Source: a virus
Reading direction: 5' to 3' (one strand)
DNA: 22,807 nt
Virus record (IMG/VR): IMGVR_UViG_3300049893_000215
Coordinates: 1-22,807 of that record
Positions within the stretch are counted from its first letter, which is position 1; the number at the start of each line of letters is the position of its first letter. The position numbers and the translations under genes were made by a program. Positions 4,138-22,732 of the stretch are shown piece after piece. The notes under the pieces are model-generated. The model did not search any database, was not told the DNA's origin, and saw only the letters and a list, made by a program, of their open reading frames with translations.

Positions 4138-4276
4138 GTTTAAGCTGTACCCCATCCAAGGAATGCTGTTCGGCTTGGAGTGGGATTGGGATAGGGGTTG
4201 GTTCTCCATCAACCTCCTAATAATTAAAATCGTATGCTTCTATAATGTGAGATATCCCATTGACGAAACTAACTGA
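4127..4276 (+). CDS. Candidate small protein (49 aa) between DUF3310 and RNR genes
   Basis: A 49-codon frame fills exactly the gap that would otherwise separate the DUF3310-type and reductase genes, overlapping them by 11 and 17 bases. The product begins MLNKFKLYPIQGMLFGLEW, is Trp/Phe-rich, and has one hydrophobic stretch (WFSINLLIIKIVCFY) that could associate with a membrane. No good ribosome site is visible, so it would rely on coupling through the ATG lying inside the end of the upstream gene. In favour: gene packing and the non-random look of the protein. Against: short length and no ribosome site. Confidence 0.45.
   Translation: MLNKFKLYPIQGMLFGLEWDWDRGWFSINLLIIKIVCFYNVRYPIDETN
4241..4246 (+). 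promoter_or_regulatory. TATAAT box ahead of the RNR gene (weak)
   Basis: A perfect TATAAT hexamer sits in a locally AT-rich stretch (4218-4246), 13 bases before the reductase start. I find no convincing -35 partner at 16-18 bases and no extended -10. If used, it would leave an almost leaderless message. The same bases are within the candidate 49-codon gene, so chance is quite possible. Confidence 0.2.
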
Positions 4277-6131
4277 CTACCAACGCTACATCCACCTGAG
4301 TAGGTACGCACGATATATCGAGAGTGCCGGTAGGCGAGAGACTTGGGAAGAGACTGTCAAGCGGTACTGCGACTTCTGGAAAGAGAAGTACCCGGATCTG
4401 TTTCCCTACCAAGTCGTCTACGACGCTATAGTTAATATGGAAGTCATGCCCTCCATGCGAGCCATGATGACTGCTGGTCCTGCTCTTGATCGGGACAACG
4501 TGGCTGGCTATAACTGCGCATATATCGATGTGGATCATCCTCGTGCGTTCGACGAGATTATGTACATCCTCATGTGTGGCACTGGTGTTGGTTACTCTGT
4601 GGAGAGGGAATATGTTCGAAAGCTTCCTGAAGTTGCTGAAGAGATGCGAGACACGGATACTACAATCGTTGTTGGCGACAGCAAGATTGGCTGGTCGACT
4701 GCCCTCCGAGAACTCATTTCCCTCCTCTACGCAGGGAAGATCCCGAGGTACGATCTATCCAAGGTTAGACCGGCAGGCGCTCGCCTCAAGACCTTCGGAG
4801 GACGAGCTAGTGGTCCGGGACCGCTGAAAGATCTGTTCGACTACGCCATCGAGGCGTTCAGAGCCGCCGCAGGGCGGCGTCTGAACGCACTTGAGGTTAG
4901 CGATCTGGTGTGCAAGATTGCAGATGCAGTCATTGTTGGAGGCGTGCGGCGCTCTGCACTGATCTGCCTCTCCAACCTGACGGATGAACGTCTCCGGACG
5001 GCGAAGAGTGGGAATTGGTGGGAGAACTTTGGACATCGTGCCAATGCCAACATCTCCGTAGCCTATTCCGAGATGCCGGATATGAATGTCTTTATGCAAG
5101 AATGGATGGCCCTATATGAATCAAAGTCTGGAGAAAGAGGTATTTTTAATCGCGTTGGCGCACAAGCTAAGGCAAAATTGGCAGGACGAAGAGATTGGAC
5201 TTTTGATTTTGGAACAAATCCTTGCGGAGAGATTGTCCTCCGACCTAAGGAATTCTGTAACTTGTCAGAGGTTGTTATTCGAAATCTCGACAATGCTGCA
5301 GACCTTGAACGAAAGGTTGCGGTCGCTACAATCATCGGAACTTTTCAATCGACCCTTACCAACTTCCGATACCTCCGGCCCATTTGGAGAAAGAACGTCG
5401 AAGAAGAGCGGCTCCTTGGAGTCTCCCTCACCGGAATCATGGACAATCCCTTTCTGGCGGTCGAACCCTCCACTGAACTCCTTGCAAGACTCAAAGAGGT
5501 AGCCATTGAAATCAACAAGCAATGGGCCGAGGCGCTGGGTATTAATCCTAGTGTTGCTATTACTACTATTAAGCCCAGCGGGACTGTATCTCAACTCGTT
5601 GATTCTAGCTCTGGGATTCATCCTCGTCACAGCGCGTATTACATCCGAACAGTACGAGCCGACAACAAGGACCCCCTCTGCACCTTCCTCAAGCAGCAAG
5701 GAGTGCCTCACGAGCCCGACGTTACCAAACCGGAGTACGTTACTGTCTTTTCGTTCCCGATCAAGGCACCTCCCTCAGCAACCATGCGAGACGACATCAC
5801 TGCCATCGAGCAGCTTGAACACTACCTCGTCTTTGCGAAAGTTTGGTGCGAGCACAACCCTAGTATTACCGTCTATGTACGGGAATATGAATGGATGGAT
5901 GTGGGGGCTTGGGTCTTCCGGCACTTCAAGGATCTTGGTGGAGTGTCCTTCCTGCCGTACTCTGAGCATGTTTACAAGCAGGCCCCTTATCAGGAATGTG
6001 ATGAGGAGTTTTACAACGAGGCATTGTCCAAAATGCCGCAAGCCATTCACTGGGAAGAGTTTGTCGAGAATGTTGATTCGACAGTCGCTTCACAGGAATT
6101 CGCCTGTGTCGCAGGCGTGTGTGAAATCTAA
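4260..6131 (+). CDS. nrdJ: Adenosylcobalamin-dependent (class II) ribonucleotide reductase
   Basis: This B12-dependent reductase makes deoxyribonucleotides from ribonucleotides without oxygen or a second subunit. The active site follows Lactobacillus leichmannii RTPR: N320-P-C322-G-E324 corresponds to N406, thiyl C408 and E410. C333 lies 11 residues on, as C419 does. C86 (YNCAYID) matches C119. The C-terminal C616/C621 pair (CVAGVCEI) would pass electrons from thioredoxin or a similar reductant. Also present are GTGVGYSVE, VGGVRRSALICLSNL and TIKPSGTVSQL. At 623 residues it is shorter than RTPR (739). The start is a TTG, since an in-frame stop lies at 4248-4250; only a weak GTGAG precedes it. 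A strong hairpin lies inside the gene. Confidence 0.94.
   Translation: MTKLTDYQRYIHLSRYARYIESAGRRETWEETVKRYCDFWKEKYPDLFPYQVVYDAIVNMEVMPSMRAMMTAGPALDRDNVAGYNCAYIDVDHPRAFDEIMYILMCGTGVGYSVEREYVRKLPEVAEEMRDTDTTIVVGDSKIGWSTALRELISLLYAGKIPRYDLSKVRPAGARLKTFGGRASGPGPLKDLFDYAIEAFRAAAGRRLNALEVSDLVCKIADAVIVGGVRRSALICLSNLTDERLRTAKSGNWWENFGHRANANISVAYSEMPDMNVFMQEWMALYESKSGERGIFNRVGAQAKAKLAGRRDWTFDFGTNPCGEIVLRPKEFCNLSEVVIRNLDNAADLERKVAVATIIGTFQSTLTNFRYLRPIWRKNVEEERLLGVSLTGIMDNPFLAVEPSTELLARLKEVAIEINKQWAEALGINPSVAITTIKPSGTVSQLVDSSSGIHPRHSAYYIRTVRADNKDPLCTFLKQQGVPHEPDVTKPEYVTVFSFPIKAPPSATMRDDITAIEQLEHYLVFAKVWCEHNPSITVYVREYEWMDVGAWVFRHFKDLGGVSFLPYSEHVYKQAPYQECDEEFYNEALSKMPQAIHWEEFVENVDSTVASQEFACVAGVCEI
4854..4888 (+). 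other. 15-bp stem-loop inside the RNR coding sequence
   Basis: The arms GCGTTCAGA and TCTGAACGC (9 bp) enclose GCCGCC and GGCGGC (6 bp) around a GCAG loop, with a single bulged G at 4879. All pairs are Watson-Crick. It encodes residues around AFRAAAGRRLNA just before the conserved VGGVRRSA region. No T-run follows, so it is not a standard terminator. Its function is unknown. Confidence 0.6.
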
Positions 6132-6734: not shown

Positions 6735-7021
6735 TTACCCTTTTGCGAGCTATAGAAATCTTTACGGAGATCACGAAGTTCTTCCTTGATCTCGGCAGTC
6801 TGGGCACGAATTTCGTTCTTCAGATCTACCGAAAGTTCTTTCATCGTCGCATCCTGTTTATGGTCGATTACTTCTTGACGGATAGTAGACGCCTTAGCAT
6901 CTATCTCCATCCTCTCTAGCCTCCAATTCATTGTAGCCCAAGCACCAGCCAAGGCGCAGACCACGCCCCCAAAATAGAGCCAGTCTTTGAAAGTGAATGA
7001 TTTGAAATCGGGCATGGACAT
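6731..7021 (-). CDS. Small membrane protein with coiled coil, possible holin or lysis regulator (96 aa)
   Basis: There is one membrane span near residues 14-31 (LYFGGVVCALAGAWATM), then a charged Glu/Lys/Arg-rich coiled coil to the C-terminus. It is fused by ATGA overlap to the muramidase gene and by TAATG overlap to the giant protein gene. Position just before an endolysin suggests a role in lysis, such as a second holin or a partner that regulates one. The single span followed by a coiled coil also resembles generic phage membrane proteins, so function is open. An ATG at 7015 is an alternative start. Confidence 0.7.
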   Translation of the reverse strand: MSMPDFKSFTFKDWLYFGGVVCALAGAWATMNWRLERMEIDAKASTIRQEVIDHKQDATMKELSVDLKNEIRAQTAEIKEELRDLRKDFYSSQKGK

Positions 7022-10000
7022 TATTCTTGTTCCTCTGGTGCGGGCACCCCAGCAGGGAAGAGAAGCTCTTGCCGCATTTTATGTTGTACTTGTGCAGATG
7101 TACTCTTAGTGAGAGCACGTTTGGTATGTTTATCAAGACGACGCCGAGCTATCTCAGCAGCAACCCGCTTCTCATAACCAGCAGGATCGGTTCCAGTCTC
7201 CTGCAATAATTGCCGAACTCTCTTCATCAGGTCCTCTTGATTAAGGGAAGAAGGCAAGCCTTCGATCAGATCCGCATGAAGCTTGACCAGATGCGTCATA
7301 CGCTTCTTGTTCTTTGCAGTTACCCGATCTATCTCCCGCTCTACCGCCCGTTCCTTACGTTCAGAAATAGAGTGCTTTCCACTAAGTACGAGCGAGATTA
7401 TATCTTCCGGAGTACGCTTAGTCAATCCCTCGACCGAGGTCGACTTAAGGCCACGGCGCATATCCCAATCCGTCATAAATCCCTCTACAACAGGATGCAG
7501 AACATTGGGGGTGAGCTTCCTAGTGGGTTCGTAGAAGTCCGTCACTGACGGGGGATAGATGCCCGATCCGGGGATCTGGGCCAGCCCCGCCTGAGCCGTA
7601 AGTCCAACGACTTGGCTGATCGCCTTCCAGAAGGGGAGGATAGCAAAAGATCCAGCGTCATCGATATTGACTGCTCCCATACTGGGAGAAAAATTAATGC
7701 CGTTCCCAAAGCCGAACAGCTTGAAGATCTGGGACGGAGCGCCATAGGTCAGGATGTCGGGAGCATTGGCCTTGAGCATCCCCACCTCCAGCGTAGGAAG
7801 ATCCAGTTCTCCGGGGAACATATAGTTAATGGCATTAATTAACATATCGTATTCACCGGCAAGCGGGATACCCGAAGCACCCGCCAACGCCATGAACGTA
7901 GCCATCGTAGTCATCAGAGGCTTGGCTGCTTCCAGCTTCTTGGGATGGTTAGCCAGTGTCTTGACCATCAGGTACATATTACCAAGGAAGGCATTACGGA
8001 ACACGGCAAACGGGGCCATTGCCTCGCCAGTCATACCTAGATTCTGGTACATGAGGGGACGAGAGGCTCGGTCGTAATTGACCATAGTCATGCCCATAAC
8101 CAGACGAGCAGCCTCGTAGGCTTGGTGCTCGTTCATTCCCTTGTTGAGATAGAAATCAAAGGCCGTCAGGAAACTCTTCTCCCGACCGTGGCGTTCCACT
8201 ATAGCGTTGACTTCCCCAGTCCTATCCCATCCCTTCTGGATGGCGCCAAGAATAGGCACATCACTGAAGAGGCCCCGGTTCTCCCCACGGATTTCCATAT
8301 CCAGCAGCGGATCGACAATGTGATTTACCCGCGCCTTCTCCAAGGCGTCATAGTAAACCTTGTCCAGCTTGTCCGAGTCCTTGGAATTCATCTTGATGAA
8401 GGACTTCAGGGCACCCGAAGAATCTCCACCAGAGATAGTCTCCATGTACTGGATCATGGCTACCGTATGTACCTTCTGGAGATAGTTAGCCATCCAGTTG
8501 GCAGGGTTCACACGGAGCTTGATGGTTGCCAAGGCATTCCGAGTAGCGCGGACGAAATGGCGAGCAAGGTTCGGGTCAAGACCCGCCGTGACCATCACAG
8601 ACCGGAGACTGTTGTCCACCCATTCCAGATGATTGAGGTTCTTGCCCAAGAAGTTCTTGCCATGCTGCTCAAGGAGCTTGTAGGTGTTATCCAGAGGAAG
8701 CACCTTCTTCCCATGACGGGCCTGAGTATCGACAAGCTTGGTCTGCAGCCCCATCAGAGGAGCATAGACATTCTCCATGAACATCACGTTACGATACGAC
8801 TCAGCCACATCCTTGAAGTACTTGTCGTAGATATGCAAGGCGTTGCTCTCACCAAAGAGCTTGGCCTTCATCCGAGTCCACGTACCATCGTAGGGATTTA
8901 CACCTCCCGTGCCACCAAACTCTCCCTCAAATCCACGCACATCATCACGGGTCTGCATATGCTTATCCCAGTGGGAGTAAGCTATATCCTCAGCCTGCTG
9001 CGTCTTGAGGGCAATACCGTTCTTGTCCGCATCCATCAGATTGAGGTGGGCGTCGAGGTGATCCTTGAAGTTCTGGAGCAGACCATTACCAACATCGTCC
9101 CAGCGGAACACACGAATGTTACCTCCGGTGCGAGGATCGGGAGCAATCTCCAAACCCTGTTTTATCATCTCGGTAACAAACTTGTTAGCATACATCCGAG
9201 TCTTGAACCCACGCACGAGCGTAACCCGCTTAACTGGCGTGCCATCTGCATTGGTGCCAACTTGTTCTAATACGTGAACCTTGTAGGGACCAAGATGGTA
9301 GTGCGGCATGTAGCCGGGGATACGAGGAATCGTCTTCCCCGTAATCTTCATACTGAGCATGTTGAGGACGTTGAACGCATTGTCCGTAGCGCGGGCAAGC
9401 CCTTGGTAGCCAGCGATCTGCTCTGGAGTGAGCCCCTGCGCACGCAGCATATTCTCGTCAGGCCAGTTGATCTGTCGCCGCATCAGTTCCCTACGACCAG
9501 CAAGAGAGTCGTAGTGAGCAGCAACGTCCATGACCCTAGCCTGATCCTTCTTGGCAAGCTTGTAGTATTCCTTGGCGTCCTGCGTCTTCAGTTGGTGATA
9601 GATCTTGTCGCCCTCATGGGCGTACCGAGCCATCTGGTCAAGACCATACTTAACCAGCCTGCCACCAAGTCCACCATCCTGCGCAGCAAGAAGGCGGATG
9701 GTGAGAGGGTTAAGGAACATCCGAGCAAAGCCATTCAGCTTGAAATCCCGAACCGCAGTGTCGGCCTCGTCCTTGAAGAACTCATCGACAGTGCGATCAT
9801 CGTAGCCAAGCTTCTTCTTGTCTCCCGGAAGATCCTTGATAGTAGCCAAGCTATCCCGAAGACTTTCGGCGTACCAGTCCTTACGCTCCCAGAGAGCCCG
9901 GCTCTTTTCCCGAGTCCACTTCGCCAAGGCAGCGTTGTTGGGATCGATGTTAACCATCGAGACAACGAACTCATCGAGAGTATCAGCGTGACGGAGGTTG

Positions 10001-12009
10001 TACCAGACCTGTCTCCAGAACAACTTGGAATCAGGCCCATCTTTCCCAGTCACACGCTCATTAAGGCGGTCCTGTGCAAACTCCTTACGATTGAGCATCT
10101 CCTGATGCATGGGATTCTTCATCGTAACTGGCTGTCCAGTAGCATCGGAAAACGGTCCCAGTGCAGTATAATCCTGCATCCGGGTTTGTCTAGCAAGATG
10201 GTCATACCACAAGGCACCTAGATCCTTGAGGCTAATCATGTCCTGCGATTCTGACACTCGCATGAAGTTGAAGAACTGGCGAGTGATAGCATTCATCTCA
10301 GGATATTCGTAGTCATTCGGAAGCAAGTCCTCTGCTTCCTTGCGAGTAAGGAATACGTCGGAGAGATCCTCTTTGAGATGGCGGGTGATTGTCTGGGGAG
10401 CGCCCATTTGCTCCGTAGGAATAGACGACTGCCTATCCCGAATAGCATTGGGGAACTCTGCCAAGAACTCATGGATGTTGTCCAGACCACGGAAGCGAGT
10501 CCCTTCAACAGTCTTCAAATCCGGATTCATATACTTCTCACGCATCTTCTGGCGAGCAGTCTCAAGGAACTTGCCTTCGAAGTCCTTGATGACTTCCGGC
10601 TTGGTCTGCTCTAGACGGAACACCGTATAGGCAGTACGAGCATGACCAATCTCATGCAGAAGAGCAGAATAGAAGTTAGTCTTATCGGGCTTTGAAATAT
10701 GGAGCGCAGGATTAGTCGGATCCTGTTCGAAGGTAGTCTTGTACGCCTCGTTAAGGATGACCCTTGAGCGCCCTTGCTTTGGACTCCATCGAGTGTCTGG
10801 TCCCAACGGGTGGTTGCTGTCAACAACAAAGACGTTGTGCCAGTTGAGCCCGTCTACAATACCACGATGCAGTAGGAAGTTAGCATAGCCACGTTGCTCG
10901 GCATCTGTAGAGGTACGCACAACAAGCTCTAGAGCCTGCATTATATTACCATTAATCCTATCTACATCTCCCTTACCAGTATCTTGGAGAAAATCGGAGA
11001 TGGTCTTGTACGTACCTTCAGGAGCAAAGAACCTGTCGGCGGCAGCCTGCCAAGTCTCATTAGGTTGACGAGCGGATTGCCAGTTATTGACTCCGGTGAA
11101 AAGGTCGGCAGTGACTCCCTCGTTGACGAAGAACGTCTCGCGTTCTTGCTGAGTCATCTTGGCCCACTGGTCAGTCAACTTCTGGGCCGGGAGATTGGCA
11201 CGCCAATTGCGGTATCCGATAGTTCCTGCCACACCACCAACGACAGTCTCGGTAAGGCGGGTAGCGAAGTAGTCCTTGTTCAGATTACCATTGGCGTCGA
11301 ACATCACATAGGGAGACTTGCCAGCATCCGTCTCAGCAACCATGCTGGTCAGGAAGTCGGCGCCAGCGCCAGTCACAGGCCCGCCAGCAATGGCAAGGCC
11401 AGCAGTACCAGAGACAGTCTTACCAAACGCCGGAAGGCGCATAGCTACCATCGTAGCTGCGCCTTGGTATGCCGCCATCTGCATGGCGTCCATCGTCCCT
11501 TCGCCAGCATCCTTGGCCTGACCATAGGTATTGACGGTGGAGGAAGCAGCACCAACCACGGCACCACCTATCGGCCCCAGCGCGAACAGAGGAAGAATGC
11601 CAGCTATCTGGGCAGAGGTCCTGTCAACCAGATCCATGTTCTCCCGCTCTTGCGGGGTGATGACTGCCTCGGAAATGTTCTTCTGGACTTGCTTACCCTT
11701 CTCCTTGAAAGCAGTACCGGCTTCACTTACAGAGGTAAGTCCAGTAAGGTTCCCGACATTCTCCATAGTACCACCAGCAAGGCGAGTACCAGCGGCAATA
11801 AGCCCGCCGCCAAGATCAAGAGCACCTTGGGCAACGGACTTAGCAATACCGGGAGAAGCTACCTCCTCTGCTGGAACTGCTGTACTTGGATCAAAAGAAG
11901 CCTCCTCTACTGGAACAGCAGTAGCGGGGTTGAACTCGACCGCTGTAGCGGGATCAAACCTAGGCTTTTCTTCTTCAGCCAGTACTGCATTAGACGGATC
12001 AAATGCCAT
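7021..12009 (-). CDS. Giant virion-associated protein with HEIGH metalloprotease motif (1662 aa)
   Basis: This is the largest gene in the window. The N-terminus has four copies of F-D/N-P-x-x-A-V (residues 3-45). Hydrophobic Gly/Ala-rich segments follow at about 50-220 (AGILPLFALGPIGGAVVGA). Residues 452-456 read HEIGH in SALLHEIGHARTAYT, a classic zinc-protease motif, with a possible third ligand at E514 or E518 in IHEFLAEF. The remaining 1100 residues are mostly charged and helical, with a RIPGYMPHYHLGP segment, a late hydrophobic stretch (TTMATFMALAGASGIPLAG) and a very basic helical end. Size and place suggest a large polyvalent or ejection protein carried in the virion and delivered with the DNA; that is inference. 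The ATG has GGGAG 6 bases upstream. Confidence 0.85.
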   Translation of the reverse strand: MAFDPSNAVLAEEEKPRFDPATAVEFNPATAVPVEEASFDPSTAVPAEEVASPGIAKSVAQGALDLGGGLIAAGTRLAGGTMENVGNLTGLTSVSEAGTAFKEKGKQVQKNISEAVITPQERENMDLVDRTSAQIAGILPLFALGPIGGAVVGAASSTVNTYGQAKDAGEGTMDAMQMAAYQGAATMVAMRLPAFGKTVSGTAGLAIAGGPVTGAGADFLTSMVAETDAGKSPYVMFDANGNLNKDYFATRLTETVVGGVAGTIGYRNWRANLPAQKLTDQWAKMTQQERETFFVNEGVTADLFTGVNNWQSARQPNETWQAAADRFFAPEGTYKTISDFLQDTGKGDVDRINGNIMQALELVVRTSTDAEQRGYANFLLHRGIVDGLNWHNVFVVDSNHPLGPDTRWSPKQGRSRVILNEAYKTTFEQDPTNPALHISKPDKTNFYSALLHEIGHARTAYTVFRLEQTKPEVIKDFEGKFLETARQKMREKYMNPDLKTVEGTRFRGLDNIHEFLAEFPNAIRDRQSSIPTEQMGAPQTITRHLKEDLSDVFLTRKEAEDLLPNDYEYPEMNAITRQFFNFMRVSESQDMISLKDLGALWYDHLARQTRMQDYTALGPFSDATGQPVTMKNPMHQEMLNRKEFAQDRLNERVTGKDGPDSKLFWRQVWYNLRHADTLDEFVVSMVNIDPNNAALAKWTREKSRALWERKDWYAESLRDSLATIKDLPGDKKKLGYDDRTVDEFFKDEADTAVRDFKLNGFARMFLNPLTIRLLAAQDGGLGGRLVKYGLDQMARYAHEGDKIYHQLKTQDAKEYYKLAKKDQARVMDVAAHYDSLAGRRELMRRQINWPDENMLRAQGLTPEQIAGYQGLARATDNAFNVLNMLSMKITGKTIPRIPGYMPHYHLGPYKVHVLEQVGTNADGTPVKRVTLVRGFKTRMYANKFVTEMIKQGLEIAPDPRTGGNIRVFRWDDVGNGLLQNFKDHLDAHLNLMDADKNGIALKTQQAEDIAYSHWDKHMQTRDDVRGFEGEFGGTGGVNPYDGTWTRMKAKLFGESNALHIYDKYFKDVAESYRNVMFMENVYAPLMGLQTKLVDTQARHGKKVLPLDNTYKLLEQHGKNFLGKNLNHLEWVDNSLRSVMVTAGLDPNLARHFVRATRNALATIKLRVNPANWMANYLQKVHTVAMIQYMETISGGDSSGALKSFIKMNSKDSDKLDKVYYDALEKARVNHIVDPLLDMEIRGENRGLFSDVPILGAIQKGWDRTGEVNAIVERHGREKSFLTAFDFYLNKGMNEHQAYEAARLVMGMTMVNYDRASRPLMYQNLGMTGEAMAPFAVFRNAFLGNMYLMVKTLANHPKKLEAAKPLMTTMATFMALAGASGIPLAGEYDMLINAINYMFPGELDLPTLEVGMLKANAPDILTYGAPSQIFKLFGFGNGINFSPSMGAVNIDDAGSFAILPFWKAISQVVGLTAQAGLAQIPGSGIYPPSVTDFYEPTRKLTPNVLHPVVEGFMTDWDMRRGLKSTSVEGLTKRTPEDIISLVLSGKHSISERKERAVEREIDRVTAKNKKRMTHLVKLHADLIEGLPSSLNQEDLMKRVRQLLQETGTDPAGYEKRVAAEIARRRLDKHTKRALTKSTSAQVQHKMRQELLFPAGVPAPEEQE
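11875..12003 (-). repeat. Four FDPxxAV peptide repeats at the N-terminus of the giant protein
   Basis: FDPSNAV, FDPATAV, FNPATAV and FDPSTAV occur at residues 3-9, 18-24, 26-32 and 39-45, separated by short Glu/Pro/Val-rich linkers of unequal length. The repeat is of a short peptide and not of an exact DNA unit, which favours selected motifs over recent slippage. Confidence 0.7.
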
Positions 12010-16669: not shown

Positions 16670-18274
16670 CTATACAAAAATCTCAATTAGTTTTCCGGCG
16701 GAACCATCAGCACCATTACTACCGCCTTGTTTTCCAGCACCACCTGTCCCTCCAGCAACAGAGACAGTAATACCGCCAGATTTATAATTCGTAGATGTCG
16801 TGACGATGAAAATAACACCGCCCCCACCACCTCCTCCTCCACCAAGTTCACGTCCCGGAGAGTCAACAGGAGTTCCACCTTGATATCCTTTTGCCTCAAT
16901 TGCACCAGAACCCGTGATAAGTCTTGCGAAGATACTTACAATACCTCCACCAGCCCCACCGGCTCCTCCTACGAAACCTGCGTCATCTGATGACCCACCA
17001 CCACCACCAGCCCCGCCTTTTAGATTAGTTACCCCGGCGATTCCCATAACATTACCGTGGGTTGCAGCACTAAGAGAAAATACCGCTCCTGCTCCTCCAA
17101 CATTAGCCGCAGGAGCAGTTGCAGTACCTCCTGATCCTCCGGTTCGTGGAAGAGGTGTTCCACCTCCATTACCTCCAGAACCACCTACTGCATTTGTATT
17201 ACTGGTCCCGGCAGTACCATTAGAGTTATTACCACCAGCGCCACCATTGGTACCAGCACCAAAAATGTAAGCTGAACCTAGATTTCCGGGAGTGGTGGAA
17301 GAGGTGGCATTTGATTCAATTACTCCACCAGATTCGATGGTAAGGGTTCCTAAAACAAGAACGCGCGCACCTCCGGGTCGGAACGTCTGTCCATTGCGCA
17401 CCGTCAGATTATTAGCTAAGATAGTGCCTTTCTGCGCGGAGTAGACGCTACCCGACCTCGTAGCAATGCCAGTATAGGACGTTGACCCATCCATGTCGAG
17501 GTTGCCATCTGAACCATCACCCCATATTCCAATGGTATCTACTAAACCTAAGTTATTGGTCCCGGTTGCCCCAGTAGCTCCTGTAGCTCCTTGAACAGCC
17601 GCACCATAGAAGTAGCAGTCTGCCGAACCACCTTGTAGATTCTGAGATGCGCCAGAATCTTGGTAGACCTGAACTTCTACATAGTCCGTGGTTCCGTTAA
17701 AGTAGCGCAATGTTTCAACAGTAAGCCCAGTACAAGCCACACCATTAGACGGATAGTTAATGGTTCTGGCTATTTCAGTACTACCATTCAAATAGAACCT
17801 TGCTCCGTGGGTTTGTCCAGCAGAGCCGGGAGTAAATCCCCACCGAACATTAAGACCCAGAATATAGTAACCAGCCGTAGCAGGAGTCCATCGATAGTTG
17901 GTAGTAGAGTCAAAAGTACTTGACGTATCATACAACTCATTGTTGAAACTGACCTTGGTCCAAGCACCAGAAGCAATACTTTCATTAGCCGATCTGTAGG
18001 CCCAAAACCTTGGTCCCTCAGTAGCAGCAGGCCCAGTAGGGCCAGTGGCTCCAGTAGCTCCGGTAGGTCCTGTTGGTCCGGTAGGACCTGTGGGACCAGT
18101 AGCCCCAGTAGCTCCGGTTGCGCCAGCGGCACCAGCGGCACCAGCAGGCCCAGTTGGTCCTGTCGGTCCAGTTGGTCCAGTTACCCCGGCTACTGTAGAT
18201 AAATCTTGGAACCACTTTTTCCATATCCAAGAAGATACATTCTCCTCATTAAGGGGAGGTTTACGGATAGCCAT
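16670..18274 (-). CDS. Tail fibre/adhesin: collagen-like, C1q-like and polyglycine domains (534 aa)
   Basis: This is a multi-domain fibre. Residues 1-30 probably dock to the virion ([13 protein letters not shown]). Residues 33-83 are about 17 Gly-X-Y collagen-like triplets rich in GPT and GAT, expected to form a triple helix. Residues about 88-225 look like a C1q/TNF-type jelly roll ([19 protein letters not shown], then [15 protein letters not shown]). A short second collagen-like run (GATGATGATG) follows, then a beta segment. Residues about 330-534 are extremely Gly-rich, with repeated GG[AST]GG and runs of five to nine Gly, like polyglycine-II sandwich adhesins such as phage S16 gp38. Receptor binding is the likely role. 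The start is a TAATG overlap with the tail hub gene. Confidence 0.82.
18026..18178 (-). repeat. Collagen-like Gly-X-Y repeat tract
   Basis: About 17 consecutive 9-base units, mostly encoding GPT, GAT, GAA and GPA, form a short in-frame tandem repeat. Units differ at third positions, so the tract is degenerate at DNA level. Such tracts can expand or contract in units of nine bases and change fibre length without a frameshift. Confidence 0.85.
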
Positions 18275-20154
18275 TAGTGCGACCTTTTAGAGATAGTTAG
18301 CTCCAAGGAATCCAATCGAATTGGAGCAATAGCATTACAGTTGAATACAAACTTCCATTCTCGTCCTGTTCCAAGATTATTAAAGTAATACCTAGAGCGT
18401 GTCTGTGGTTCTGCGATGTCAGAATCAGCGAAGTCTGTATCAAACGGAATAGATTTATTACGAATCTTCCAGAGATTTTCTTCACCGAGTACATCAGAGG
18501 TAACAGCCCCACCAAAGAAACTACTATTCAGATTGCTCCAACCAAATCTGTAAGTCAATCCTTCTGAGATGAAAGAAACGTCTGGTTCACTTGCTGGCAC
18601 ATTCATTCTAGGCACGATATCGTCAGCAACAACATATGCTCTAGTTATCGTCTTTCTATTTCGTGTACCAAAATCATAGATATTAGTTATTACTTGTACA
18701 GGAATTCTCCAGTACAAGAGAGTAGTAGCATTACCATCCCGGAAAGTATCATAGTATGCACCAGAACTATTAGGCTCATAAAGTTGCGTATGATACGTAG
18801 GATGCGCTCCATAATTATCTTGAGTAACACCGTCTAAGTCCGCCGCGTCTGCCGCAAACCAGAAAAAGTAACGAGGGCTCCAAGAAGAAGAAACACTAGA
18901 AGCACAGAACAGTGCAACAGGACGATAGGTACATTCCAAAGCAAAGTTCCACCATGCTTTGGAATCAATACAGTAAACCAAAGAAGACCACAATTCATCA
19001 TTTTCAGGAGTAACTGGGTTTGCTTCTTGCGGATCTGTAACCCAACCAGACTGACTCTCTCTCCAAGAATTCATTATGATGTGCCTAACACCATACATAG
19101 AAAATACTTGTAGATTTGTATTATGGCGATCTTGAAAAGCCATGTACGACTGGTATGGCTGCGAAAGAAGGATGGGAGTATATCCTTCTATCTTCCACAG
19201 ACCAAGTGCGTTGTTAGAACTATGTGCCAAGAAGTAGAGGACATCATCAACATTAATGATCGCTTTTGGTCCGGCAACACCCATACTAATAAAAGCTTGT
19301 TGCGTCCTCTCTAAAGGAGAAGCGGGAGGGGCCGTACCAATGTTGTTAAAGAACTCTATGGTATTGTCTCCACAAGCAATGATGTGATGCTTGTAGCGAA
19401 CCAGACAAACACCCTGATCCGGTTTTGATCCTGCTTTGAGGTTAGCACTAGTATTCCACGAAGAAATACTGTTTATATCTGAGTTATAGATATAAGAGTC
19501 TTTAGTAAGAATAAAAGTATAACCATCCATTTGTACAAAACCACCAGTAATCGGGCGAGCGGGAGTCTGCTTCGGCGGGAAGTCTGTATCAGTTATTTCT
19601 GTCAAAGACGAAGCAGTAAACAGGCCACTAGTAGTAGCAGCATAATACCCCGCACTGGTAGTAGTAGATGTATCATATGGATACACAGCTACAGCTACAT
19701 ATGGAGTATTAGAAATGTCCAATTCCGTCAGTTTCACATGATGAGTTGTGTACCCAGTTATCTCTCCAATCTTAAGACAAGTGTTTGCCTCAGACCTATA
19801 CTGCACAATATAGATTTTACTATCAGACGCATCCTCATAAGCAACCACAAGAACGTCTGTTAATTGCGTCATTGTAATAACATCAAGAACCGTAATGCGA
19901 TCCGCATTGCCCACAACTCCGGTAAGATCTACCGTCATTTCCGGTTGATACAAAGGTGCCCTAGAGACAATTTGAGGAGTGCCAGCATCACCACGAATGG
20001 GATCTTTATATACGATAGGAAAACAATTAACCATATCCTGCTCAACGCCGGTACGTTTATTAAAGTAGTTTCCTTGAGCGTATAGACGCTGCATATCCGC
20101 TGCATACCAAGGGATACGAATAGTCTGGAGACTATCTTGTAACTGTTCAGCCAT
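18274..20154 (-). CDS. P22 gp10-like packaged-DNA stabilization / tail hub protein (626 aa)
   Basis: This resembles the phage stabilisation family typified by P22 gp10, which plugs the portal channel after packaging and joins portal and tail. Supporting stretches are [19 protein letters not shown] near the start, [21 protein letters not shown] in the middle, then [21 protein letters not shown] and a long series of beta-rich repeats, as in a propeller. Order supports this, since a gp4-like adaptor gene lies immediately upstream. The true start is the ATG at 20154 (MAEQLQDSL), overlapping the adaptor gene by 8 bases. The open frame runs further upstream but only as a shadow of the adaptor gene. 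Confidence 0.75.
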
Positions 20155-20911
20155 TAGAATTATCCCAATTAGGAGAGGGTTGAACGAACAAGGAACCCTC
20201 CTCCTGATCAAAGGAGTAGGCGATAGCCTTATGCGTCTGCGCCTTCCGAGTAATCTGTGCGCGATCTGCAATAGGCACACCGTACTCAAATGCCAGTTGT
20301 TCCGCAAGAGCCCAGCACAGAGCGTTGTAGAACTGCGGAGGGACATCTGGATTGTTGGTGCTGCCGTCGAAGTCGTCGAACGGCTCCATGTAGGAGATGA
20401 GAATGGATCCGGTAACACCTCCGCTGGAGATGAACTCCGCGCTCGGAACCGGCCACAAGTAGATGGTTCCTACCGCCGCTCCGCTGGAAGCGGGCGGCGT
20501 GCGGTACCACATCTGGATCGGAGGACCTTCCTGAAGCTTGGTAGGAATGTTCTGCCAGTCCGTCTTGGAGAGAATGTCCATCGGAACATCAACGATACTA
20601 CCATCCGTATTGGTTGTACGGCGATGGGCCTGAACGATCTTTAGCGGAGCGGGAGTACTCACTGTTTGCCCTTCACCAATATCATAGCCAGCCACGCTGG
20701 CAGTAGGAGTGAAGACAAGATCCGTGTACTTCCACAAATGGAGCCCATCGGCCATCCATTCCTTCATGATATCGTTGAGGGCATGGGCAGCTTCCGTTGT
20801 TGCCGCAGTAGTCGGAGTCTCTCCTTGGCCTATTGCGCCAATAATCCGCATAGCCCTCTTGATGATGTCATCCCGAGTTACAGAGTAGTTCGTACTTCCA
20901 GAGAGCGCCAT
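20147..20911 (-). CDS. Head-to-tail adaptor (gp4-like) protein (254 aa)
   Basis: This is a podovirus head-tail connector of the gp4/tail-tubular type. Conserved features are VTRDDIIKRAMRIIGAIGQGE at the N-terminus, HALNDIMKEWMADGLHLWKY, a TPTASVAGYDIGEGQTV beta segment, PPIQMWYRTP and YLWPVPS, and a PPQFYNALCWALAEQLAFEYG helix near the end. It would bind below the portal and carry the tail hub encoded next. The ATG has AAGGGG upstream, and a 10-base gap separates it from the tailspike gene. Confidence 0.82.
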   Translation of the reverse strand: MALSGSTNYSVTRDDIIKRAMRIIGAIGQGETPTTAATTEAAHALNDIMKEWMADGLHLWKYTDLVFTPTASVAGYDIGEGQTVSTPAPLKIVQAHRRTTNTDGSIVDVPMDILSKTDWQNIPTKLQEGPPIQMWYRTPPASSGAAVGTIYLWPVPSAEFISSGGVTGSILISYMEPFDDFDGSTNNPDVPPQFYNALCWALAEQLAFEYGVPIADRAQITRKAQTHKAIAYSFDQEEGSLFVQPSPNWDNSNG

Positions 20912-20921
20912 TTATTTCCCC

Positions 20922-22418
20922 TTATGCCGGTTCAAGAAGCATCCAAGCGACTGTAGAAGTGTCGGTTCCGCTTGACGAGTTAATAGTGAATCCAACACCA
21001 GCATTGAGTACAATAGAAAGATGCCCAAGAGTACCCCCGGTAGCCATACGAGAACAAAGCACGCGAGTATTAGCCGTAATACTAGTGTTAGCCACCACGA
21101 CAGTTCCGGCAGCAAGCGTTGACGTACCCATGCGAGCATTGCTACCCTCCTTAATGCGCAGGCCCTTGCCTGCGGTGGTGATATGAAGATCGTCCGGAAT
21201 CTTGTGAGTAGCATCCTCCATCCAGTTCTGGTAGTGGATCTTGAGGGTTGCCGTACTGAAGTCGTCGGCTCCTGCAGCCTTGTATCCACCTACCAACCAG
21301 AGATGGTTGTTAGTAGTAGAGTTGCTATAGACGTTTACCAGCGAATCTAGAAACGCGCAGTTCCTAACCGAGCAGCCATAGGCCACCGTATCGAAAGCAA
21401 TGGACTTTGAAGTACCTGTGTTGTGCGGAGAGAAGGAACAACCTTCAACAACCAGACCTCCGTAGAGGATTCCCATGTGCCACGGAGGAGATGCCCCAAC
21501 TACACGAAGACCATAGGCACTTTGGTTTTCAAACCAAGAGTCTACAATATGGCCGAAGGTTGGCGATACCATTCCAGTATTTTGATAGGCGAATTCACAA
21601 TCCTGTATGGAACTAACGCTATGGGAGTCGCCTCCCGGCCAGAACAGACCAACGTACCCACCGACGATGATACAACTCTTGAAGTAATACCCATCCGTAA
21701 AGTTATTGGTCGATGCTGATTGGTACGTCTGCCCGCCAAGGGTTTGACCCGGCCATCGCGGGTAGTTCATGACGCAGAAGGACGAGGGAACGTTGTCTCC
21801 ATTAACGTCCGTGGTATACGAACCAGAACCAGTGGTATCAGTCATTACAGTACGCATATCGAAGAAGCAACGATCAAACGTCCAGTTGATCATATTCTTT
21901 GTCATCACACAACCACGCACAGACGTTCCACTGGAGACAAACTCGCAGTTACGCATGATGCCGCCAGAGCCATACAGATACACCATGACAATGTTGCTAG
22001 AGGTGGTGAACTTTAGGTCCTCAATGTATCCCTGCCAACCAGAGTACTCCCCACTGGCAGTAGTGTCGGTAGGCGCAGCAACAAGTCCTGCGTACATGGT
22101 CGACAGAGAGGCAGTGCTAGATCCAGCAATCACAAAGTTGATCGTGGCTCCGTTGCCTTGGATTCGTTTGACGGAAGCAGCGTTACTATTACGCGAAAGG
22201 TACAGGGTGCTGGTAACTTTGTAGGTAGCTCCAGCACGGAACATCACCGTCTCTGCCGCCTCAAACGCAGCTTGGATGGCTGCCGTGTCGTCAGTAGTAC
22301 CGTCGCCTACCGCACCGTAGGCGGGGTCTTCAACGTGGGCAACGGCCTCAATGCGCCGTTGCGCCTGATTCATAAACGTGTTGGTAATTACATTACCATC
22401 GGACCAAGTAGTAGTCAT
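20922..22418 (-). CDS. Tailspike/tail fibre with pectate-lyase-like beta-helix (498 aa)
   Basis: This is a receptor-binding spike, perhaps a depolymerase. YGAVGDGTTDDT at residues 34-45 is the hallmark start of Pectate_lyase_3-type beta-helices in phage spikes. It is followed by AIQAAFEAA and many short beta-rich coils (VEGCSFSPHN, VRNCAFLDS) typical of a right-handed parallel beta-helix. The last 65 residues (AAGTVVVANTSITANTR, then TVAWMLLEPA) match a small C-terminal capping or trimerisation domain common in tail fibres. The first 33 residues would attach to the tail. I chose the ATG at 22418, which overlaps the upstream stop (ATGA) and has TTGGGGG upstream. Enzymatic activity on a polysaccharide cannot be judged from sequence alone. 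Confidence 0.83.
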   Translation of the reverse strand: MTTTWSDGNVITNTFMNQAQRRIEAVAHVEDPAYGAVGDGTTDDTAAIQAAFEAAETVMFRAGATYKVTSTLYLSRNSNAASVKRIQGNGATINFVIAGSSTASLSTMYAGLVAAPTDTTASGEYSGWQGYIEDLKFTTSSNIVMVYLYGSGGIMRNCEFVSSGTSVRGCVMTKNMINWTFDRCFFDMRTVMTDTTGSGSYTTDVNGDNVPSSFCVMNYPRWPGQTLGGQTYQSASTNNFTDGYYFKSCIIVGGYVGLFWPGGDSHSVSSIQDCEFAYQNTGMVSPTFGHIVDSWFENQSAYGLRVVGASPPWHMGILYGGLVVEGCSFSPHNTGTSKSIAFDTVAYGCSVRNCAFLDSLVNVYSNSTTNNHLWLVGGYKAAGADDFSTATLKIHYQNWMEDATHKIPDDLHITTAGKGLRIKEGSNARMGTSTLAAGTVVVANTSITANTRVLCSRMATGGTLGHLSIVLNAGVGFTINSSSGTDTSTVAWMLLEPA

Positions 22419-22732
22419 GCAACCCCCAAGGTAGCGCACCCAACGGTGCCAACAGTTACAGCAGGACGCCTACGAGTAGGTGTACATGCGTATTGTGTAG
22501 AATCCCAAGCATCGTAGTCCGTCATAGATGGAACTCCAAACTCGGGACGTACAAACGGAAGCTTGTGATAGTCGTTATGCACACGGAAGAAGTCGAGAGG
22601 ATGCCTAGTCTCGTAGTCTTCCGAGCAGACAATCAAGCCGTCCCACCTCTTCTTCATCTCAGAGGCTTTGAACTGGAATCCGCAGACATCACAGATTGCG
22701 TTGTAGGAATAAGAACCGCCAACAGTACCCAT
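22415..22732 (-). CDS. Small protein with CDVC zinc-binding-like motif (105 aa)
   Basis: This is a phage protein of unknown function that I have seen next to tail genes. A CDVCGFQFKASEMKKRWDGL block and a VCSEDYETRHPLDFFRVHND block together give three Cys and several His that could bind a metal. The C-terminal third is less structured and has four more Thr/Arg/Cys-rich stretches. The ATG at 22732 is best, because it overlaps the stop of the upstream gene (TAATG). The open frame to 22747 and beyond is probably spurious, since the upstream gene occupies a different frame there. Confidence 0.72.
   Translation of the reverse strand: MGTVGGSYSYNAICDVCGFQFKASEMKKRWDGLIVCSEDYETRHPLDFFRVHNDYHKLPFVRPEFGVPSMTDYDAWDSTQYACTPTRRRPAVTVGTVGCATLGVA

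Follow-up and report, generated by a model that had tools for sequence, protein, structure and literature searches.

In phage S16, the tip protein gp38 is built on a beta-helix, the turns of which are extended to form a polyglycine-II sandwich bearing variable loops (PMC6851490), an arrangement also described for PP01 (PMC12892980). It is a separate protein, present in one copy per gp37 trimer. The adhesins of haloarchaeal hafunaviruses have been likened to T-even gp38 by the authors who described them (PMC8651126), and the adhesin gene was concluded to be the key determinant of their host range (Liu et al. 2021, PMC8651126). For instance, HRTV-19 and HRTV-23 are distinguished by two substitutions, one in the adhesin and one in the next gene, and show a 1000-fold plating difference on two strains (PMC8651126). 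In later work, the type of adhesin showed no phylogenetic association with the ability to infect one Haloferax strain (PMC9229481). Additionally, phage tail proteins with a C1q/TNF-like fold are already known. Phage and bacterial jelly rolls of this fold include the phi812 central spike, those of cyanophages A4 and A-1(L), TM4 gp23, and BclA, in which the jelly roll follows collagen.

The window, meaning the whole stretch of 22,807 nucleotides analysed here (IMG/VR record IMGVR_UViG_3300049893_000215), encodes a fibre that appears to be a new combination of known modules. Its ORF of 534 aa occupies 16670-18274 on the minus strand of this 22.8-kb virus record, which comes from an environmental sample, and begins with ATG, while the plus strand of the same interval contains many stops. 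An earlier note on this DNA had proposed the ORF with its strand left unstated; the reading frame is confirmed and the strand is minus. The modular order read by that note (dock, collagen, C1q-like knob, short collagen, Gly-rich domain) is borne out, with the following features in the order of the protein.

18191..18274, minus strand: N-terminal segment, aa 1-28, presumed tail dock by its position only
18026..18187, minus strand: collagen-like stalk of 18 Gly-X-Y triplets, aa 30-83 (Pfam PF01391, triplet count, tandem repeat at the DNA level)
17597..18025, minus strand: C1q/TNF-like jelly roll, internal and not terminal, aa 84-226 (relatives, AlphaFold, Foldseek/VIA)
17555..17590, minus strand: second short collagen run of four triplets, aa 229-240 (sequence)
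16673..17554, minus strand: putative Gly-rich adhesin domain, a member of the GDGSDG/DMYYNNL family, aa ~241-534, about 295 aa (profile and hhalign)
17303..17536, minus strand: conserved beta-strand head of that domain (GDGSDGN ... NNLTV ... GTLTIESGG), aa 247-324 (head profile, pLDDT)
16994..17302, minus strand: long Gly-rich insertion of 103 aa with 33% Gly, aa 325-427 (composition)
16970..16993, minus strand: non-Gly segment SSDDAGFV between two Gly runs, aa 428-435 (pattern)
16673..16993, minus strand: C-terminal beta strands with Gly-rich loops, aa 428-534 (pLDDT, hhalign)

No relatives of the dock (aa 1-28) were found by sequence; its Trp-rich motif matched only terminase-like proteins, and no dock relative was identified. 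The collagen triplets noticed earlier are present as 18 uninterrupted triplets and four later ones, and the stalk matches Pfam Collagen PF01391 at 32.4 bits, above the cutoff of 27.2. The following C1q/TNF-like domain, likewise expected from the first reading, is upheld by its relatives, by profiles and by its predicted fold, including the comparison with C1q by Foldseek. Residues ~88-222 share 33-38% identity with proteins of Pelagibacter and Methylophilales phages, of an archaeal-virus record and of a spring-water phage, one of these relatives being annotated as C1q-like, and a profile of the domain finds hundreds of relatives in viral contigs. The Pfam C1q sequence model gives no match to the window's own domain; it matches 19 of 54 relatives (best 6.6e-7), and a profile built from the relatives finds collagen X NC1 (E 0.0039). 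The AlphaFold model of aa 84-226, made with 54 sequences, has a pLDDT of 91.8 and a pTM of 0.85. Its VIA Z-scores reach 18.9 for the phi812 central spike and 18.1 for the vertebrate Caprin-2 C1q, and Foldseek matches it to C1QL3 with an E-value of 1.2e-7, further matches being C1q-like proteins, TNF ligands, cyanophage tail proteins, TM4 gp23 and BclA. Since relatives, profile, AlphaFold and Foldseek/VIA all agree, the C1q fold, though predicted, is a solid assignment. The window fibre shares this fold with the phage and bacterial jelly rolls named above, and the order of collagen followed by jelly roll with BclA. Unlike them, it carries the jelly roll internally, with a further collagen run and one more domain behind it.

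This last domain, the Gly-rich part, could be assigned to no database family by searches with the window protein, and tblastn found no match to it in a phage collection even at E 10, presumably an effect of the low-complexity filter. The family was opened by DMYYNNL, which follows GDGSDG and which we take to be a motif of other phage fibres. Searched as a DNA pattern, it matched more than 120 viral contigs, nearly all of which encode GDGSDG-like, DMYYNNLT and FVkGTLT motifs, followed in most by Gly-rich sequence; the family consensus reads GDGSDG...DMYYNNLT...FVkGTLT.... A sample of 344 loci, drawn by similarity and motif, contained 193 non-redundant ORFs with the Gly-rich head and 116 with the C1q domain, the window included, and thus 192 other Gly-rich-head ORFs. 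Among the family members scanned there was no credible Pfam match to the Gly-rich domain, which has no Pfam model. Several members match PHROG 13336 (unknown function), and the window protein itself has no match to it at E 0.01.

Against the family profile, the window scores 63.3 bits, while shuffles preserving the Gly positions reached at most 25.3 (n=300) and 3.4 (a second 300). The head alone scores 20.6 bits against a head profile, with shuffles at most 7.5. Moreover, hhalign of the window against the family built without it gives 98.6% over 261 columns, and the C-terminal part (aa 428-534) aligns to the family at 97.0%. By these profile comparisons, the window domain belongs to a widespread, unnamed viral family and is a direct relative of the PHROG 13336 / GDGSDG-DMYYNNL domain of environmental phages. 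It reads TILANNL in place of DMYYNNL, keeping NNL, lacking DMYY and carrying an insertion of ~14 residues there; as DMYYNNL was the search term that drew the sample, the motif is not truly defining. The only relative found in a bacterial genome lies on one Acidobacteria MAG scaffold (L258) and is perhaps a prophage or a contaminating phage. The weak PDB matches of the family profile, which include Gly-Ser linkers, engineered fusions and Obg GTPases, were judged compositional, the Obg match having an E-value of only 0.01. Obg likewise packs Gly-rich helices, which is a curious parallel.

A search with a family member retrieved 29 Halorubrum and Haloarcula virus records, the majority of them annotated as 'putative adhesin'. 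Aligned with eight halovirus proteins by hhalign, the family without the window reaches 99.5% over 284 columns, falling to at most 1.3% when the non-Gly columns are permuted. The window domain alone gives 93.6% against the halovirus profile with a score of 56.2, compared with at most 24.9 in 20 shuffles. The window was not found by hmmsearch with the halovirus profile, its score being negative after bias correction, so its link to the haloviruses rests on the profile-profile comparison and on single-sequence hhalign with shuffles. Together, the alignments indicate that the Gly-rich family is homologous to the haloarchaeal hafunavirus adhesins. The adhesins of HF2, HRTV, HJTV and HCTV viruses have the same head, beta strands and Gly runs with variable segments, and are encoded at the end of the tail module. 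They are separate proteins consisting of this domain only, in contractile-tailed archaeal viruses, whereas the window domain is fused to a collagen/C1q fibre in a short-tailed phage. Comparing the sequences of HRTV-19 and HRTV-23, we found A217V in the adhesin and one change, at residue 52, in the next gene. The A217V site falls within a non-Gly segment that has Gly runs on either side, and SSDDAGFV of the window (aa 428-435) is a segment of the same kind, the correspondence being by pattern only. The adhesin role suggested earlier for the Gly-rich part is supported by this homology to adhesins with published host-range data. As its relatives are implicated in the host range of viruses that infect salt-loving archaea, the Gly-rich tip is probably the host-recognising part of the fibre.

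Within the sample, which was drawn by similarity and motif so that uniqueness applies to that sample only, the architecture of the window stands alone. Collagen precedes the Gly-rich domain in one of the 192 other ORFs (L026, cut by a contig end), and none of the 192 carries a C1q domain. The C1q domain is C-terminal in all 115 other C1q ORFs; more than 40 residues after it are found in the window ORF alone. On contig L068, a C1q-like protein (L068:2416-2931) is encoded apart from a Gly-rich fibre (L068:10406-12745).

The C1q-like knob, terminal in those 115 non-redundant ORFs, might itself bind the receptor, the Gly-rich domain then being a C-terminal module for folding or capping, maybe shed after assembly. 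Among the structures matched by the knob are solved phage receptor binders of the C1q fold (the TM4 gp23 receptor-binding domain and the cyanophage A-1(L) short tail fibre), and gp38, an adhesin in S16, is known from T4 as an assembly factor (PMC6851490). However, stand-alone hafunavirus adhesins implicated in host range belong to the Gly-rich family, and the domain sits after the second collagen run like a further stalked module. No homologue was found in which it is a known chaperone that is cleaved off, a possibility raised by the earlier note. We therefore consider receptor binding by the knob in place of the tip unlikely.

The fibre gene is located in the tail module, directly after the genes for adaptor and head closure. 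Furthermore, the beta-helix tailspike that the first reading had expected, as predicted from Pfam domains, gives the genome another candidate receptor binder.

20922..22439, minus strand: tailspike-like beta-helix protein, second candidate receptor binder (Pfam domains)
20147..20911, minus strand: head-tail adaptor protein (Pfam SU10_adaptor above cutoff; relatives in podovirus records)
18274..20418, minus strand: head closure / DNA stabilisation protein, adjoining the fibre gene upstream (PHROG 578 head closure Hc3, 1.9e-18)

The ATG of the fibre gene and the stop codon of its upstream neighbour share bases (TAATG), an overlap resembling that in a translationally coupled tail operon, and the head-closure gene probably starts further downstream than its ORF does. 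Neither a tail-tube nor a tape-measure gene was recognised in the 22.8-kb record; this fits a short tail, though the record is incomplete. The tailspike matches Pfam K1-lyase_C (3.5e-24), the endosialidase N-terminal extension (6.6e-7) and, weakly, a pectate-lyase fold. With lyase-type domains such as these, it could suffice for capsule-dependent adsorption and alone recognise the host, the fibre being a structural or decorative appendage with a minor role in specificity; phage collagen-like proteins are also often annotated as minor tail proteins. We regard such an appendage as slightly less likely still than receptor binding by the knob, because the terminal domain of the fibre is homologous to adhesins and because a depolymerase spike and a fibre occur together in many phages.

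The last 90 residues of the tailspike (K1-lyase_C) show 50-63% identity to Streptomyces phage proteins, both tailspikes and minor tail proteins, whereas the adaptor and the fibre point to phages of aquatic bacteria, so a module has apparently been exchanged between distant phages. The minus strand also encodes a protein of 1662 aa (7021-12009) that matches the PLxRFG domain family weakly, with a score under the cutoff of the model, and is possibly an ejected internal virion protein. The plus strand encodes a 623-aa phage ribonucleotide reductase with a B12-dependent insertion domain (4260-6131), together with a T7-type endonuclease I and a 5'-3' exonuclease (970-1524 and 296-1033), and this module and the minus-strand structural genes converge near 6.1-6.3 kb. 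Searches with whole proteins and neighbouring genes found no close relatives of the phage carrying this fibre, which is divergent.

The Gly-rich domain had been taken to begin near residue 330 and to span 200 residues. Its start instead lies near aa 241, and ~85 beta-rich residues without polyglycine belong to it. Gly makes up 33% of the sequence from aa 325 to 534, which contains one run of nine Gly, seven GG[AST]GG and eight Gly-rich motifs. Shuffling the same composition 5000 times gave a run of nine in 24 cases, as many GG pairs in 47 and seven GG[AST]GG in none; by count and shuffles, the earlier description of Gly runs up to nine with repeated GG[AST]GG is confirmed. The nine consecutive Gly (aa 478-486, 16817-16843, minus strand) use all four Gly codons, so the run is not simple DNA slippage.

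In the predicted structure, the head (aa 247-324) has block pLDDT values mostly of 69-96, with aa ~268-281 below 50 and aa ~284-324 modelled well. The values fall below 60, and mostly below 50, across aa ~325-419, and are again 74-96 across aa ~439-534. The modelled order is strands (~284-321), the Gly-rich insertion (103 to ~120 residues), strands (~445-462), a Gly-rich loop, strands (~487-508), another Gly-rich loop and a final strand. The domain is thus predicted to be a beta-strand scaffold with Gly-rich insertions, for which polyglycine-II packing is plausible. Disorder, which the earlier note had proposed as a test, is excluded for the scaffold but may apply to the middle insertion, where pLDDT is low. 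That the whole Gly-rich part is low-complexity sequence of no defined fold, similar to the family through composition, is scarcely credible despite its Gly content and the low pLDDT of aa ~325-419, as the match survives Gly-fixed shuffles, the non-polyGly head matches alone, and the confident modelling largely refutes it for aa 284-324 and 439-534.

The likeness to S16 gp38 claimed earlier holds for the layout, with eight Gly-rich motifs and strands before, between and after them. It does not extend to sequence, where hhalign between the window domain and gp38 gave 0.4% and 0.7%, no better than shuffled gp38. Foldseek with the Gly-rich model, part of which is of low confidence, matched no PDB chain, gp38 included; this is not evidence of a new fold. 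The gp38 proteins of S16, T2 and PP01 (PDB 6F45, 9V85) and the window domain share a beta scaffold, Gly-rich insertions, variable segments and a probable tip position. The resemblance is architectural, and the window domain may work in a gp38-like manner. The two differ in that gp38 is a separate protein with established polyglycine-II packing, while the window domain is fused to its fibre. Searching predicted viral structures with the Gly-rich model gave matches to proteins of the giant viruses Orpheovirus and Pandoravirus (E down to 1.2e-7) that are likewise named collagen-like. This is suggestive only, as TM is about 0.5 and Gly-rich models may match each other easily.

Taken together, we think it probable that the gene encodes a trimeric receptor-binding fibre of a short-tailed phage with a covalently fused Gly-rich adhesin tip, for which we infer trimerisation, tail attachment and receptor contact by the tip. 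The fibre would be a homotrimer docked on the tail by its N-terminal ~28 residues, and the collagen triplets would form a triple-helical stalk. The C1q/TNF-like jelly roll would trimerise and cap this stalk, with ligand binding of its own possible, and the second short collagen run would carry the axis onward. Every chain would end in a Gly-rich adhesin domain, in which the Gly-rich insertions, split by short variable non-Gly segments, would project from the beta scaffold as the host-recognition surface. More tentatively, the Gly-rich adhesin could be a mobile receptor-binding module of phages of bacteria, viruses of archaea and possibly also giant viruses, fused here to a collagen/C1q trimer to give three copies per fibre beyond the C1q knob, as against one per S16 fibre.

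A large Gly-rich phage family that has no Pfam model is hereby tied, on the homology described above, to archaeal-virus adhesins with host-range data, and many environmental phage ORFs would thus gain a testable role. Additionally, this example suggests that a fibre can incorporate an adhesin otherwise known as a tip protein of its own, which raises the structural question of whether such a fibre presents three tips or one.
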